Of a stretch of 34,013 bases of DNA, positions 6,969 to 15,974 are shown piece after piece. A program made the position numbers and the translations under genes. The first letter of the stretch is position 1; every line of letters begins with the position of its first letter. The notes below the pieces were generated by a model. The model ran no database searches and had not been told where the DNA came from. It saw nothing but the letters and a program-made list of their open reading frames with translations. This DNA is from Phycisphaerales bacterium (GTDB lineage: Bacteria; Planctomycetota; Phycisphaerae; Phycisphaerales; UBA1924), in assembly GCA_029260535.1 (NCBI GenBank), contig JAJDDA010000056.1:1-34013 (forward strand), given 5' to 3'.

Positions 6969-7606
6969 ACAATTTAACCAAACAACACGCGGCAGGGCGC
7001 AGGGGTGTGACGCTGCTCGAATTGATGCTGGCGCTGTCGGTAACAGCGATGGTCGGTTTGGGTGTGGCGTCGATGCTCTCGATGATCAGCTCGAGCACGC
7101 AGGATGCGCGGGATGCGCGGTCGCTGCTGCTGCGGGCGCACGCCGGGCAGATCAGGCTGCGTTCGTACCTGGATTCCTCGCTGAGCCTGCTCCAGCACGA
7201 CGCGGATCAGGGGCTGGCGGTGTGGCTGCTGGATCAGCGGACGATCGACGAGGTGAACCTGTCGGAGATCCGGGTGTTCTGGTTCGACGACGTGACCGGG
7301 ACGCTGACAGTGGAATGGGTGAGCTTCCCGGAGGGGTGGACGGAATTGCAGATCCAGACGTTCGACACGGTGGTCCCTGTCGGCGCGGATTATTTCGCGG
7401 AGATGCAGGCGCAGCGCGCCGGCGGGATGACCGCGACGCTGGACCTGATCGAGGGGATGACATGGCATCAGATGAACTTTGACGCGAAAAATATTTTAGA
7501 TGCGACACGGGTTACGGCGCAGATGGAGTTCGAGGTCGCCGAGGGCGATCGCCGGAGGACGTTGTCCACGTTCGGGCTGGCGAATCATCAATCGGTCGGC
7601 GGCTAA
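6965..7606 (+). CDS. GspJ-like minor pseudopilin
   Basis: A 213-residue prepilin-like protein. The leader MNNLTKQHAAGRRG is followed by VTLLELMLALSVTAMVGLGV, so cleavage is expected after G14 with Glu19 at +5, ahead of a single membrane helix. The rest looks like a periplasmic beta-rich domain without recognised catalytic residues. It overlaps the upstream gene by ATGA and is followed 16 bases later by a GspK-like gene. GspJ is typically about this size and lies between gspI and gspK. The protein would act in the pseudopilus tip; the machine it belongs to is not otherwise encoded in the window. Confidence 0.8.
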   Translation: MNNLTKQHAAGRRGVTLLELMLALSVTAMVGLGVASMLSMISSSTQDARDARSLLLRAHAGQIRLRSYLDSSLSLLQHDADQGLAVWLLDQRTIDEVNLSEIRVFWFDDVTGTLTVEWVSFPEGWTELQIQTFDTVVPVGADYFAEMQAQRAGGMTATLDLIEGMTWHQMNFDAKNILDATRVTAQMEFEVAEGDRRRTLSTFGLANHQSVGG

Positions 7607-7609
7607 ATC

Positions 7610-7615
7610 AGGAGG
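7610..7615 (+). promoter_or_regulatory. Shine-Dalgarno AGGAGG of the GspK-like gene
   Basis: AGGAGG lies 7 bases before the ATG at 7623. It sets the start well inside a longer open frame that begins at 7500. Confidence 0.75.
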
Positions 7616-7622
7616 ACATACG

Positions 7623-9479
7623 ATGACGAAGCGAATGAAACGGGCGATTAGTTTTGGGTCCGAACACGGCGCCGCTCTGCCCGCAAAGCGAGGCGTGGCG
7701 CTGATGCTCGTGGTCGTGGCGCTGGGCACCGCGACGGTGCTCACAACGGCGTACCTGATGAGCAAGGATAATTCCGCGGCGATCGGCGCGAACGCGCAGG
7801 ACACCGCGGCGAGCTCGTGGGTCGCGCGGAGCGGCGCGGAGTTGGCGCTGGCGGTGCTGCAGACACAAGAAGACTGGGTGGACGCTGATCCTGAGAAGCT
7901 GTTCGAGGGGTTCTCGATCGCCGGAGGCACGGTCTCGGTCGCGCTGACCAACCTGCAGGGCGAGGTGCCGGATGGGACGGAGACCGAATTGGCGATGACG
8001 GTGGTCGCGGACGTCAACGGGATCAAGACGGTGCTTCAGCGGATCGTTTCGATCCAGCCTGATGCGGTCTTTGACGACGCGGTGGATGCGGAACTCGGTG
8101 AGTTCGGCATCTTTGCAGCCACTGAGATTGATCTATCGGACACCGCGAGGATCGGCGCGTGGCCCATGAGCCCGGCGTACCTGTCGGGTGAAGGGGTCAA
8201 GATCGGCGCTGGGTTTGTTGATGCTTCGAGCATGGGCGTGAACGCGGGTTCTGCGGCTTCGAGAGCGGAGTTGTACGTGCGTCCTGACGCGGCGGCGCCC
8301 CTGCAAGCCATGACCTCGGATTCAACGTTTGTTGATGGCGCGGTGCTGCAGATGGTGGTCCCGGCGATCCCGCCGCTCAAGCCCGCCGACTTTGGTGCGC
8401 TGCCGGTGATCGAGGAATCAAACCTCACGATCAATGATTCATCGCTGTCAACACGGCTTGTCAGCGGGACGTATGCCAATCTGAAAATCGACAAGTTGGA
8501 CACTGTTGTGACACTGGATGACACGGACGGCGGCGTGTACCTGTTCGATGATCTTGACGCCGATCACGAATCTGTCCTGCTGATCTCAGGCGATGTTCAG
8601 GTTTGTGTCATCAACAATATGAAGATTCAAAACTGCAGCGCTATTGAATTCGCGGATGATACTTCTCGCGTTCGTTTTTATGTCGGGAAGCAATTCAAGG
8701 TTCACAAGACTGCGGTTGGGCTCCCTCGTGAGATTGCACGGAAGCCGGACCGTGGGCTGATGGACATCGATAAGTATGTCGATCCATCGAGGCTGCGCGT
8801 GTACGCGCTCGAATCGGCCGGTGGGGGCGACGCGGATCCTGACATCGACATCTTCAACGGGTCCATCGCGAACATGGTCGTGCACGCACCGCTGTCGCAG
8901 ATCGAGGTCAAGGGATCGTCCTGGGTGATCGGCCGGCTGACCGGCGACATCATTAAGATCAAGGACGATTCGGGTCTGCTTTACGACCCGGTGCTGGACA
9001 GCAAGGTCGGGTACACGGCGTTCAAGGGGCCGCTCTACCAGAGCAACGGTGATCTGCAGGTCGGTCTGAAGGCGGCGATTGATTCGTATGACGTCCTGCT
9101 TGGATTGGAACAGTTCCAGGCGCACGTGATCGCGAATGTCACCACCGAGGTTGTTCCCGTGCAAATGGTCGGGATCGGCGATCCGACGCCGCGCAGCCAT
9201 GATCGCGCGATCGAGAAGCTCTGGCCGTTCGTTGCCAAAGCGATCGAGAACGGGAGTTGGGTGACCGGTGACCACGAAGTGCGGCAGGAGAGCCTGTACG
9301 TGCCGCTGGATCCGTCGATCTTCGATCTCGATCAGTTCTACAACAATGGCGTGATCAGCGCGACGCATGTTGGGCAACAGGCTCTTGAGGTTACGGAGTC
9401 GCAGGTTGCTGTCCCAATCGGATCTCCCGGCAACAGCAACGGCAATGCGAATGCCAACGCCAATATCCCGATCAACTGA
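7623..9479 (+). CDS. GspK-like large minor pseudopilin
   Basis: A 618-residue protein. The leader ends AKRG (G24), followed by VALMLVVVALGTATVL. The prepilin glycine and helix are present but residue +5 is Leu rather than Glu, as in GspK, which lacks the conserved Glu. GspK is the largest minor pseudopilin and caps the pseudopilus tip. This copy is about twice the usual size, so the long periplasmic part may carry extra domains; it could also be compared with PilX-type proteins. The C-terminus is an Asn/Gly/Ala tail (NSNGNANANAN). It is third in the tight I-J-K-like operon. A short AT-richer patch lies at about 8590-8710. The function beyond pseudopilus assembly is unknown. Confidence 0.75.
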   Translation: MTKRMKRAISFGSEHGAALPAKRGVALMLVVVALGTATVLTTAYLMSKDNSAAIGANAQDTAASSWVARSGAELALAVLQTQEDWVDADPEKLFEGFSIAGGTVSVALTNLQGEVPDGTETELAMTVVADVNGIKTVLQRIVSIQPDAVFDDAVDAELGEFGIFAATEIDLSDTARIGAWPMSPAYLSGEGVKIGAGFVDASSMGVNAGSAASRAELYVRPDAAAPLQAMTSDSTFVDGAVLQMVVPAIPPLKPADFGALPVIEESNLTINDSSLSTRLVSGTYANLKIDKLDTVVTLDDTDGGVYLFDDLDADHESVLLISGDVQVCVINNMKIQNCSAIEFADDTSRVRFYVGKQFKVHKTAVGLPREIARKPDRGLMDIDKYVDPSRLRVYALESAGGGDADPDIDIFNGSIANMVVHAPLSQIEVKGSSWVIGRLTGDIIKIKDDSGLLYDPVLDSKVGYTAFKGPLYQSNGDLQVGLKAAIDSYDVLLGLEQFQAHVIANVTTEVVPVQMVGIGDPTPRSHDRAIEKLWPFVAKAIENGSWVTGDHEVRQESLYVPLDPSIFDLDQFYNNGVISATHVGQQALEVTESQVAVPIGSPGNSNGNANANANIPIN

Positions 9480-13018: not shown

Positions 13019-14644
13019 ATGGATTCCAACAACGCCGTGTCTGGTTCTGTGTCTCGTCCGCGATCAAAGCCTCAAGAGGAATCGCTGCGCGAGACGCTGG
13101 TTTCGATCCTGATCGCGTTTGTGCTGGCGTTTGTGTTCCGGTCGTACGTTGTTGAGCCGTTCGTGATCCCGACGGGGTCGATGGCCCCGACGCTGCTCGG
13201 GGCGCACATGGAGTTCCACAGCCCTTATTCGGGGTACGCGTGGACGGCGAACCCGCGCGACTTTGTTGATGGGCGGAACGACAAGCCGCTGCCATTGCAG
13301 GGCCGGCGCGACAGCACCGGCGGCGGTCACATCGCGGTGACGGACCCGATGTCGGGGCTTGGGTTGGCGCAGTTCGATGTTCCGGCGAAAGCGGGGGATC
13401 GGATCCTTGTCTTGAAATATTTGTACGCGGTGCGCTCACCGAAGCGGTGGGATGTCGTGGTGTTCAAGAACCCGGAGCAGCCGCAGCAGAACTACATCAA
13501 GCGGCTGGTGGGATTGCCCAACGAGGAGCTCTGGATCGCCGACGGTGATCTGTTCACCCGCGCTGCGAATACGGATGACAACTGGTCGGTGGCGCGGAAG
13601 CCGAACCGGATCCAGCGGGCGCTGTGGCGGACGCTGTATTCGAGCGAGTGGGCGCCGAGGGTTGAGGAGCATGACGGCGTGGCGTGGCGCGGGCCTTGGG
13701 AAGCGGCGGGCGTGCGCACCGCTGGCCAGGCGTACCGGATGATTGCCGACGACAACGGCGCCTCGGTGCTGCGGTGGAACAGCGCCGATTGGCCGATCAC
13801 CGATGAGACGGCGTACAACGAGACGTACCGGATGAGCAACATCAAGCGGTACCCGATCTCTGATCTGCGGATGCGGGCGGTGATCACGCCCGATGAATCA
13901 TCCGCATTTACCGCGACCGCGAGCCTGCTGATCCGTGGGCAGGAGTTCCAGGCGGTGCTCGGTGCGAACGGCGTGACAATCCGGCAGCGGTCGGCGCCGA
14001 TCGCGGACGACAGTTCGATCGCCCCTGCGGACGAGATCGATTGGGTGACGCTCGCGACATCTTCGAAGCGCGTCTTTACGAGTGGTAAAGCGGCGACGGT
14101 CGAGTTCTGGCACGCGGATCAACGGTTGAGCGTCTGGGTTGACGGTAAGGAAGTCTGCGCCGCAGGGTACAACTGGTCCCCCATGGAGCGGATCGAGAAC
14201 GTGACCGGGATGGAAGTGACGCAGCGCGGGACGGCGTACATGTCGGTGAAGTCTGCGAACCTCAGCAGGCCTGGGGTGTACCGGAGGCCGATCGTGTCGT
14301 GGCGGTTCGAAGGTTCGGACGCGACGCTGACGCGGGTTGGTCTGGATCGTGACTTGTATTACCAGCCGGCGAGGAACCCCTCGCGCGCGACGACCCCTGA
14401 GACGGTGTTCACGCTCAACTCGGATCAGTTCTTCACGCTCGGGGACAACAGCGCCGCGAGCAAGGATGGCAGGATGTGGACGCACGTCGATCCGTGGATC
14501 GCAGAGCAGTTCGACCCGACAATCGGGGTGGTGCACCGGGACCTGATGATGGGGCAGGCGTTCTTCGTGTACTTCCCTTCGCCGAGGAAGGCGATGGGTC
14601 GGGTGCCCGTGCCGAACTTTGGTGAGATGCGGTTTATTCGGTAG
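13019..14644 (+). CDS. lepB: Signal peptidase I with large inserted domain
   Basis: Cleaves signal peptides from exported proteins at the outer face of the inner membrane. A membrane helix at 26-43 is followed by the catalytic serine motif PTGSMAPT (Ser54), the general-base lysine in NYIKRLVGLP (Lys161), and box D GDNS (475-478) with SKDGR (481-485). The Ser-Lys dyad is therefore intact. Usual bacterial enzymes have about 180-330 residues; this one has 541, because about 290 residues sit between the Lys box and box D. Part of the insertion (about 282-400, with VEFWHADQRLSVWVDGKEV near 361-379) looks like a concanavalin/LamG-type jelly roll. The start ATG 13019 lacks a clear ribosome site. The 3' end overlaps the hisS 3' end by 11 bases, tail to tail. 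Confidence 0.9.
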   Translation: MDSNNAVSGSVSRPRSKPQEESLRETLVSILIAFVLAFVFRSYVVEPFVIPTGSMAPTLLGAHMEFHSPYSGYAWTANPRDFVDGRNDKPLPLQGRRDSTGGGHIAVTDPMSGLGLAQFDVPAKAGDRILVLKYLYAVRSPKRWDVVVFKNPEQPQQNYIKRLVGLPNEELWIADGDLFTRAANTDDNWSVARKPNRIQRALWRTLYSSEWAPRVEEHDGVAWRGPWEAAGVRTAGQAYRMIADDNGASVLRWNSADWPITDETAYNETYRMSNIKRYPISDLRMRAVITPDESSAFTATASLLIRGQEFQAVLGANGVTIRQRSAPIADDSSIAPADEIDWVTLATSSKRVFTSGKAATVEFWHADQRLSVWVDGKEVCAAGYNWSPMERIENVTGMEVTQRGTAYMSVKSANLSRPGVYRRPIVSWRFEGSDATLTRVGLDRDLYYQPARNPSRATTPETVFTLNSDQFFTLGDNSAASKDGRMWTHVDPWIAEQFDPTIGVVHRDLMMGQAFFVYFPSPRKAMGRVPVPNFGEMRFIR

Positions 14645-15974
14645 TTGGAGGGGCGATCCTTGCAACCGCTTTGTCTGTTGCGACGTTCTCTTCCTGCTCA
14701 CCTGAATCGAGATCTTTGATCGTGCAGATCGTGTCTGATTCGAGGATCAGCGCGAAACGTGCGTGCGCGTTGTTGGCTTCTTTGAGGAGCTTGCCGACGT
14801 TGCGGGTTGATTTGTAGGTGTGTCGTGCATGCAAGCCCTCGCGGCGTAATTGCGCGACGAGAGTTTTGACGAGGTGCTCGGTTTCGGTTGTTGGGATGAC
14901 GTAGACGTCGGGGCGCAAGCCGAGGTCCTGTGCGATCTGTTCATCTGTTGGCATGAGGCCCTTGTCCTGGAGGACGAGGGAGAGGACGACGTCACCCATC
15001 GCGAAGCCGACCGCGGGGGTGGGGGGACCGTTGAAGAGCTCGATGAGTTTGTCGTACCGGCCGCCGCCGGCGATGGCGCGTTCGGAGCCTGTTGTTTCGT
15101 GGACTTCGAAGACGGTTCCGGTGTAGTAGGCGAGGCCTCGGACGGTATCTATATCCGTTTCACACCACTCCCATAAACCGTTTTTAGTTAAGAAGTCAAC
15201 GGTGGTTTCCAGAGGCCTAGTCTCGGGGTACTTATCTCCAACAGTATCTCGCAAAACATCGAGAAAATTGGAACGCCCAGTTAACTTATGGATTCGTTCT
15301 ATTCTGTTGATGTGATCATCCGTAGCTCCAATTTTTCTTGATTCTTCTGCGAACTGTTCCTTAGTGATCTTCAATCGTCGGTCCAGCAGCACAAGCATTG
15401 GTTCGATCAACTCTTCGGGGAACTTGCTTGCAGTTAAGATGGTCTCCATATCAACTCGATTGTTAATCTTGATAGTTACGTCATTTGGAGTGAGTCCAAG
15501 GCTCTCAAGAAAGCCAATACAACACGCGATGCACTCCCCGTCCGCCTCCGGCGAATCATCTCCAATCACATCCACATTCCACTGCAGGAACTCGCGGAGT
15601 CTTCCTCGCTGTGGGTTTTCTGCGCGGAAGTAGGGGCAGATCGAGAACCACTTGGTTGGCTTCGGGAGCGAGTTGGCTCGTGCCGCGGCCATCCTGGCGA
15701 GGGTGGGGGTGAACTCGGGGCGGAGGGCGTAGCGTTTGTCGCCGCCCTCTCGGGTGAAGGAGAAGAGCTCGGAGACGATGCCGTCGCCTGATTTGACGGT
15801 GTAGAGGTCGAGGTGCTCGAAGGTGGGGCCGTCGATCTCGTCGAAGCCGTGGCGGATGGAGGTCTGGCGCCACTTGTCCTCGATCCAGCGTCGGCGGGCG
15901 AGTTCGAGGGGGTAGAAGTCTCGGGTGCCCTTGGGGGCCTGGAAGACGTGGGTTTTGTCGTTTGGGGTTGCCAT
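14634..15974 (-). CDS. hisS: Histidyl-tRNA synthetase
   Basis: Charges tRNA(His) with histidine in the cytoplasm. The 446 residues show the class II N-terminus (APKGTRDFYP, 13-22), motif 2 (FRAENPQRGRLREFLQW, 116-132), the HisRS-specific RGLAYYTG (279-286), GGGRYD (304-309) and a C-terminal anticodon-binding domain (about 345-435). All key motifs are present and the frame is intact. The oddity is composition: codons about 133-277 (15146-15578) drop to about 42% GC while the flanking thirds are at chromosomal level. This is what a mosaic gene would look like. It is divergent from nuoG with a 53-base gap, and convergent with lepB. Confidence 0.95.
   Translation of the reverse strand: MATPNDKTHVFQAPKGTRDFYPLELARRRWIEDKWRQTSIRHGFDEIDGPTFEHLDLYTVKSGDGIVSELFSFTREGGDKRYALRPEFTPTLARMAAARANSLPKPTKWFSICPYFRAENPQRGRLREFLQWNVDVIGDDSPEADGECIACCIGFLESLGLTPNDVTIKINNRVDMETILTASKFPEELIEPMLVLLDRRLKITKEQFAEESRKIGATDDHINRIERIHKLTGRSNFLDVLRDTVGDKYPETRPLETTVDFLTKNGLWEWCETDIDTVRGLAYYTGTVFEVHETTGSERAIAGGGRYDKLIELFNGPPTPAVGFAMGDVVLSLVLQDKGLMPTDEQIAQDLGLRPDVYVIPTTETEHLVKTLVAQLRREGLHARHTYKSTRNVGKLLKEANNAHARFALILESDTICTIKDLDSGEQEENVATDKAVARIAPPTTE
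15146..15578 (-). other. AT-rich segment inside hisS, possible recombination tract
   Basis: By hand count 15181-15480 is about 42% GC (127 of 300), against 72% for 15661-15720 in the same gene. The segment encodes the region between motif 2 and the RGLAYYTG motif. Codons ending in A or T and codons such as AAA, ATT and TTA are common here and rare on both sides. The reading frame is unbroken. Confidence 0.75.

Follow-up and report, generated by a model that had tools for sequence, protein, structure and literature searches.

Among core genes, those for aminoacyl-tRNA synthetases usually count as conserved and slow to change. In the window analyzed here, i.e., the whole stretch of 34,013 nucleotides from a Phycisphaerales bacterium, the essential gene for histidine--tRNA ligase (HisRS), hisS, contains a sharply AT-rich block in its middle, which raises the question of how this part of the gene came by its composition. 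The source genome assembly comprises 3.09 Mb in 257 contigs and carries one hisS. The gene, its block and the borders of the block are located as follows:

14634..15974, minus strand: hisS, histidine--tRNA ligase of 446 aa (TIGR00442 and Pfam PF13393), single copy in the genome
15147..15524, minus strand: AT-rich core of the insertion domain, residues 151-276 (GC3 two-change-point fit and GC profile), putatively replaced
15525..15578, minus strand: left transition, residues 133-150; the position of the left junction differs from one family genome to another
15117..15146, minus strand: right border, codons 277-286 (TVRGLAYYTG), a nearly fixed junction
15030..15146, minus strand: right shoulder with C-rich third positions, codons 277-315 (4-fold-site skew)
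15525..15674, minus strand: left shoulder, codons 101-150, with G-rich third positions in AT-rich relatives (4-fold-site skew)

The AT-rich block had been pointed out in an earlier note on this DNA, and it is real. In 150-base windows, the GC content is 0.40-0.45 across 15150-15524, flanked by 0.65-0.67 at 15600-15974 and 0.65-0.66 at 14925-15149, and the lowest-GC 300-base window of the 34 kb (0.437) lies in this block. GC3 amounts to 0.85 in the N-terminal segment (N), 0.44-0.47 in the middle (M) and 0.72-0.84 in the C-terminal segment (C). Of the interval 15146-15578 given in the earlier note, the edges at the end of motif 2 and at RGLAYYTG stand, and the two-change-point fit of GC3 places a slightly shorter block, on the motif-2 side, at residues 151-276 (approximately 15147-15524). 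The reading frame is unbroken, as had been stated, and TIGR00442 and Pfam tRNA-synt_His (PF13393) both extend across the whole block; with 317 bits against a cut-off of 287, the protein belongs to the TIGR00442 equivalog. An overlapping gene across the block was rejected, as no long open frame in another frame spans it.

The assignment of the block to the insertion region could be verified as well. The middle alone matches the HisRS structures 1wu7 (E 1e-9) and 3hri (E 3e-9) from Thermoplasma and Trypanosoma. An AlphaFold model of the window's HisRS (pLDDT 91), for which 1wu7 is the best PDB match (TM 0.84), has a mostly helical middle of mainly high confidence. The block thus encodes a normal HisRS insertion domain. 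In the family, the insertion-domain residues G160, R173, D198, K202, G216 and W270 are nearly invariant.

For the comparison with relatives, the named ones of which are Phycisphaerales assemblies, 151 aligned hisS genes were used from 70 genera of the family of the source genome. A GC3 dip was defined as a middle GC3 at least 0.2 below the flanks, a cut set after seeing the data. Such a dip was found in 56 of the 151 genomes and 29 of the 70 genera, genomes within one genus being dependent observations. The reverse pattern (middle GC3 at least 0.2 above the flanks) occurs in none of the 151, and 16 genomes that belong to other families of the order all lack the dip. On the tree of the flanks, at least 24 changes between the AT-rich and the GC-normal state are required, so the dip was gained or lost many times. 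The AT-rich middle is also present in assemblies with one or few contigs (G125, identical to L290, CP053450; G103; G053), which argues against assembly chimeras. Strain mixtures might have shown up as contigs ending at hisS unusually often; no such excess is clear from a rough estimate. In three genomes of the family that are 89-96% complete (G128, G129, G140), the N-terminal part of hisS was not found, probably due to assembly gaps. Four records titled Limnohabitans, Singulisphaera or Kuenenia (L248, L251, L276, L277) carry a Phycisphaerales-type hisS, and their titles look misassigned.

The size of the dip is 0.34 in the window's hisS and 0.59 in that of the relative G053. Among 306 genes from the window and 400 kb of G053, one other gene reaches 0.34 and none comes near 0.59; this survey covers about an eighth of one genome, so further such loci are possible elsewhere. 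The second-lowest GC stretch of the window (8401-8700, GC 0.483, GC3 dip 0.24) is located within a plus-strand ORF at 7500-9479, which encodes 659 aa without a Pfam match.

The histories of flanks and middle were compared in 127 hisS pairs with a flank protein identity of at least 0.90. In the 52 GC-normal pairs the middles are 49-95% identical (median 0.78), none being at or below 40%. Among the pairs involving an AT-rich gene, 66 of 68 have middles of 12-40% identity (median 0.22; 14 genera). The distribution is bimodal, with few of the 127 pairs in between. Examples at the protein level are G023/G105 (flank 0.99, middle 0.26) and G008/G071 (flank 0.99, middle 0.14), and the seven species of genus g24 have seven middles with 12-26% identity on flanks of 0.90-0.99. 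At the DNA level, the flanks of sister genes are around 80-100% identical and the middles near chance, with gaps; for G008/G071, flank bins reach 100% and middle bins mostly lie at 23-58%. In control genera, middle and flanks diverge equally, silent sites included. In total, the AT-rich middles represent 54 distinct alleles in 55 genomes. The relatives have the position of the patch in common, not its content. The patch recurs at the same place, part of what had been named in advance as speaking against a mosaic, but it is not shared by descent: the alleles are unrelated.

Correlations of distances agree with this. They are 0.28 (N-C), 0.11 (N-M) and 0.13 (C-M) in the AT-rich set, and 0.58, 0.48 and 0.52, respectively, in the GC-normal set. 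For the window's own gene, the values are 0.52 (N-C), 0.24 (N-M) and 0.42 (C-M). In the AT-rich set, flanks and middle of hisS have different histories, as in a mosaic gene. A further group with unrelated middles on similar flanks is formed by the named Planctomycetota MAGs L228, L229 and L260, which have a moderate GC3 (L228/L229, outside the pair set: flank 0.96, middle 0.25). The assembly G145 contains two hisS (L105, L200) with 96% identical N parts and unrelated middles, possibly from two strains binned together; one of the two contigs ends at RGLAY.

The junctions are sharp in relatives. After around 48 identical bases within the domain in G062/G065 and around 42 in G063/G064, identity is lost within a few codons, and in G158/G161 77 identical bases are followed by a short mixed stretch before identity is lost. 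The window's own gene shows an edge in composition only. The left change point varies (median residue 138, IQR 132-145), being sharp but at variable sites in sister genes, and the right one has its median at residue 275 (IQR 273-278). Once in place, an allele is stable: G146 and G158 have one AT-rich middle in common, which diverges no faster than the flanks. Together with the sharp junctions, this favours discrete replacement over continuing hypermutation.

The best explanation, to which a probability of roughly 0.72 is assigned, is that divergent homologues have repeatedly taken the place of the HisRS insertion domain across this Phycisphaerales family. The repeated replacement in many genera is established by comparisons between species; that the window's own hisS is one such product is suggested by its composition and the pattern in the family. 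The segment between motif 2 and RGLAYYTG would be exchanged as one unit, with a right junction nearly fixed just upstream of RGLAYYTG and a left junction anywhere between roughly the end of motif 2 and roughly residue 180. The exchange would proceed by recombination at the conserved borders, and new variants may be favoured by something, e.g., an antagonist acting on the domain or its DNA. Frame and fold are preserved, as are a few key residues, so that the enzyme remains a HisRS. Accordingly, the earlier proposal that the middle of the gene was replaced holds for the relatives (sharp junctions, bimodal identities, weak flank-middle correlation), not as a single transfer into the source genome but as a recurrent event across the family. 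The even composition of the silent sites in the middles is not predicted by plain exchange among GC-rich hosts, and the right motif contains fewer foreign codons than expected if crossovers fell inside it.

Around the block, the AT-rich genomes show a mirror-image GC skew, G-rich on the left and C-rich on the right, which fades with distance. As genus means, the 4-fold-site skew is +0.34 +- 0.06 in AT-rich versus -0.12 +- 0.06 in GC-normal genomes on the left (codons 123-150), and -0.80 +- 0.05 in 28 AT-rich genera versus -0.20 +- 0.08 in 40 others on the right (codons 277-290). The window's own gene has a left skew of about 0 over codons 90-150 (0.00) and a right skew of -0.80. Furthermore, the TVRGLAYYTG codons of AT-rich relatives are unusually uniform and C-ending (uniformity 0.76; remaining flank codons 0.50-0.59, GC-normal genomes 0.56), and this uniformity tracks the AT-rich state within the genera g18, g68 and g80. 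On both flanks, the G-rich strand is the one whose 3′ end faces the block. As a guess, this orientation would fit sites at which resection starting from a break within the block comes to a halt; co-transfer of the borders is another reading of the skew. Tentatively, and with considerably less confidence than in the replacement itself, it may be that the family keeps an actively diversified domain in an essential synthetase, with a large hidden pool of alleles, recurrent breaks or exchange and an arms race on HisRS or its gene. The G-rich 3′ strands of the flanks would then result from recurrent breaks or exchange within the domain.

The composition of the AT-rich middles bears on the first of the alternatives, local hypermutation, by which a lineage's own insertion domain mutates many times faster until the silent sites reach an even composition. 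The pooled 4-fold sites are indeed near even (A 0.27, C 0.24, G 0.24, T 0.25), genomes differing modestly in this respect, the strand-asymmetric skew fades away from the block, and the middles are no closer to each other than to slow-evolving relatives, as would be the case for independently accelerated copies. This explanation is unlikely, as sharp junctions lie beside long identical stretches, the middle of G146/G158 is stable and the middle identities are bimodal. In addition, codon choice in these middles is not fully random (ATA 0.14 of Ile, TTA 0.08 of Leu).

Equally improbable is ordinary transfer from distant bacteria of lower GC content, with each AT-rich middle coming from an unrelated donor phylum. 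Such an origin would agree with a composition unlike that of the host, with codon usage like that of a moderate-GC genome and with some tracts that extend beyond the right border and contain codons unlike those of the host (G046, G080, G076). However, the similarity of the middles ranks family and order above class, class above phylum and phylum above other phyla, the latter represented by four sequences only. AT-rich middles follow the same ranking as GC-normal ones, with uniformly lower scores, and in dozens of alleles their 4-fold-site GC stays within a fairly narrow range near 0.47. They are no closer to each other than to the remaining sequences, and hence do not form one imported clade. 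For the window's middle, one scan of 84,980 species gave no close relative. The donor of different composition assumed in the earlier note could not be confirmed: none turned up among genomes of the phylum or among viral contigs, phages or plasmids, and the middles keep a Phycisphaerales affinity on uniformly longer branches. Two scans for a viral source, with the protein or the family alignment, gave no match. The border motif was detected in three viral contigs only, in each case in an unrelated phage frame. Where plasmids and phages match the border or the protein, the hits are either ordinary HisRS genes or due to chance. G046 has an unusual border, TSNVFE, for which 397 genomes sampled from the class gave no match. 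A mobile gene linked to hisS was rejected, as the neighbours vary by genus and none is common to the AT-rich set.

In diversity-generating retroelements, the 3′ border is sharp and carries a conserved GC-rich motif, and the 5′ border is variable. The borders of the hisS block are similar, and its fixed 3′ and variable 5′ border recall the polarity of retrohoming. A dedicated diversification system, either such a retroelement or gene conversion from silent cassettes, is nevertheless very unlikely, because the source genome contains neither a reverse transcriptase nor a template repeat and the changes extend over the whole block. Of 163 genomes of the family, 29 contain a reverse transcriptase. 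A second copy of the block was not found in the source genome, nor a second RGLAYYT site in any of the 163, in a DNA search that misses copies as divergent as the alleles unless the right border is present. Least credible is a vertically inherited AT-rich patch kept by selection on mRNA or translation speed: its position is the same in many genera, but it is absent from many others, the unrelated middles of sister species refute this reading for the family, and the left and right flanks pair as RNA no better than controls, with duplex energies weaker in AT-rich than in GC-normal genomes.

Repeated replacement of the domain also invites comparison with known systems. In type I restriction specificity domains and pilin variation, variable domains are exchanged between conserved borders. 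The hypervariable middle and conserved borders of hisS are similar, whereas hisS is a single-copy essential synthetase for which silent copies were not found. Mosaic core genes formed by homologous recombination, e.g., penA of Neisseria (PMC10926701) and the Campylobacter introgression (PMC3139442), likewise have a part replaced by a divergent homologue, with junctions in conserved sequence and the frame kept. Unlike in these cases, replacement affects the same domain of hisS in 14 or more genera, almost every species has an allele of its own, known donors are lacking, the 3′ junction is near-fixed, and the protein divergence of the middle is near the level of unrelated HisRS domains. The nearest precedent for pressure on hisS at the DNA level is the self-targeting CRISPR spacer of Pelobacter carbinolicus, which, unlike here, matches the anticodon recognition domain of a gene that is not replaced (PMC2923632). 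The literature on HisRS domain exchange, intragenic synthetase recombination, local hypermutation and Phycisphaerae, with most subscription journals outside the coverage, contained no such description.

Beyond the mosaic signal of the earlier note, the comparison points to an essential enzyme of which one domain is replaced time and again across a bacterial family, to the point that sister species have almost nothing in common there. This constitutes a natural experiment on the extent to which HisRS tolerates change, and it calls for caution in the use of hisS of this group in trees. Furthermore, the pattern points to some pressure on HisRS or its gene in planctomycetes.
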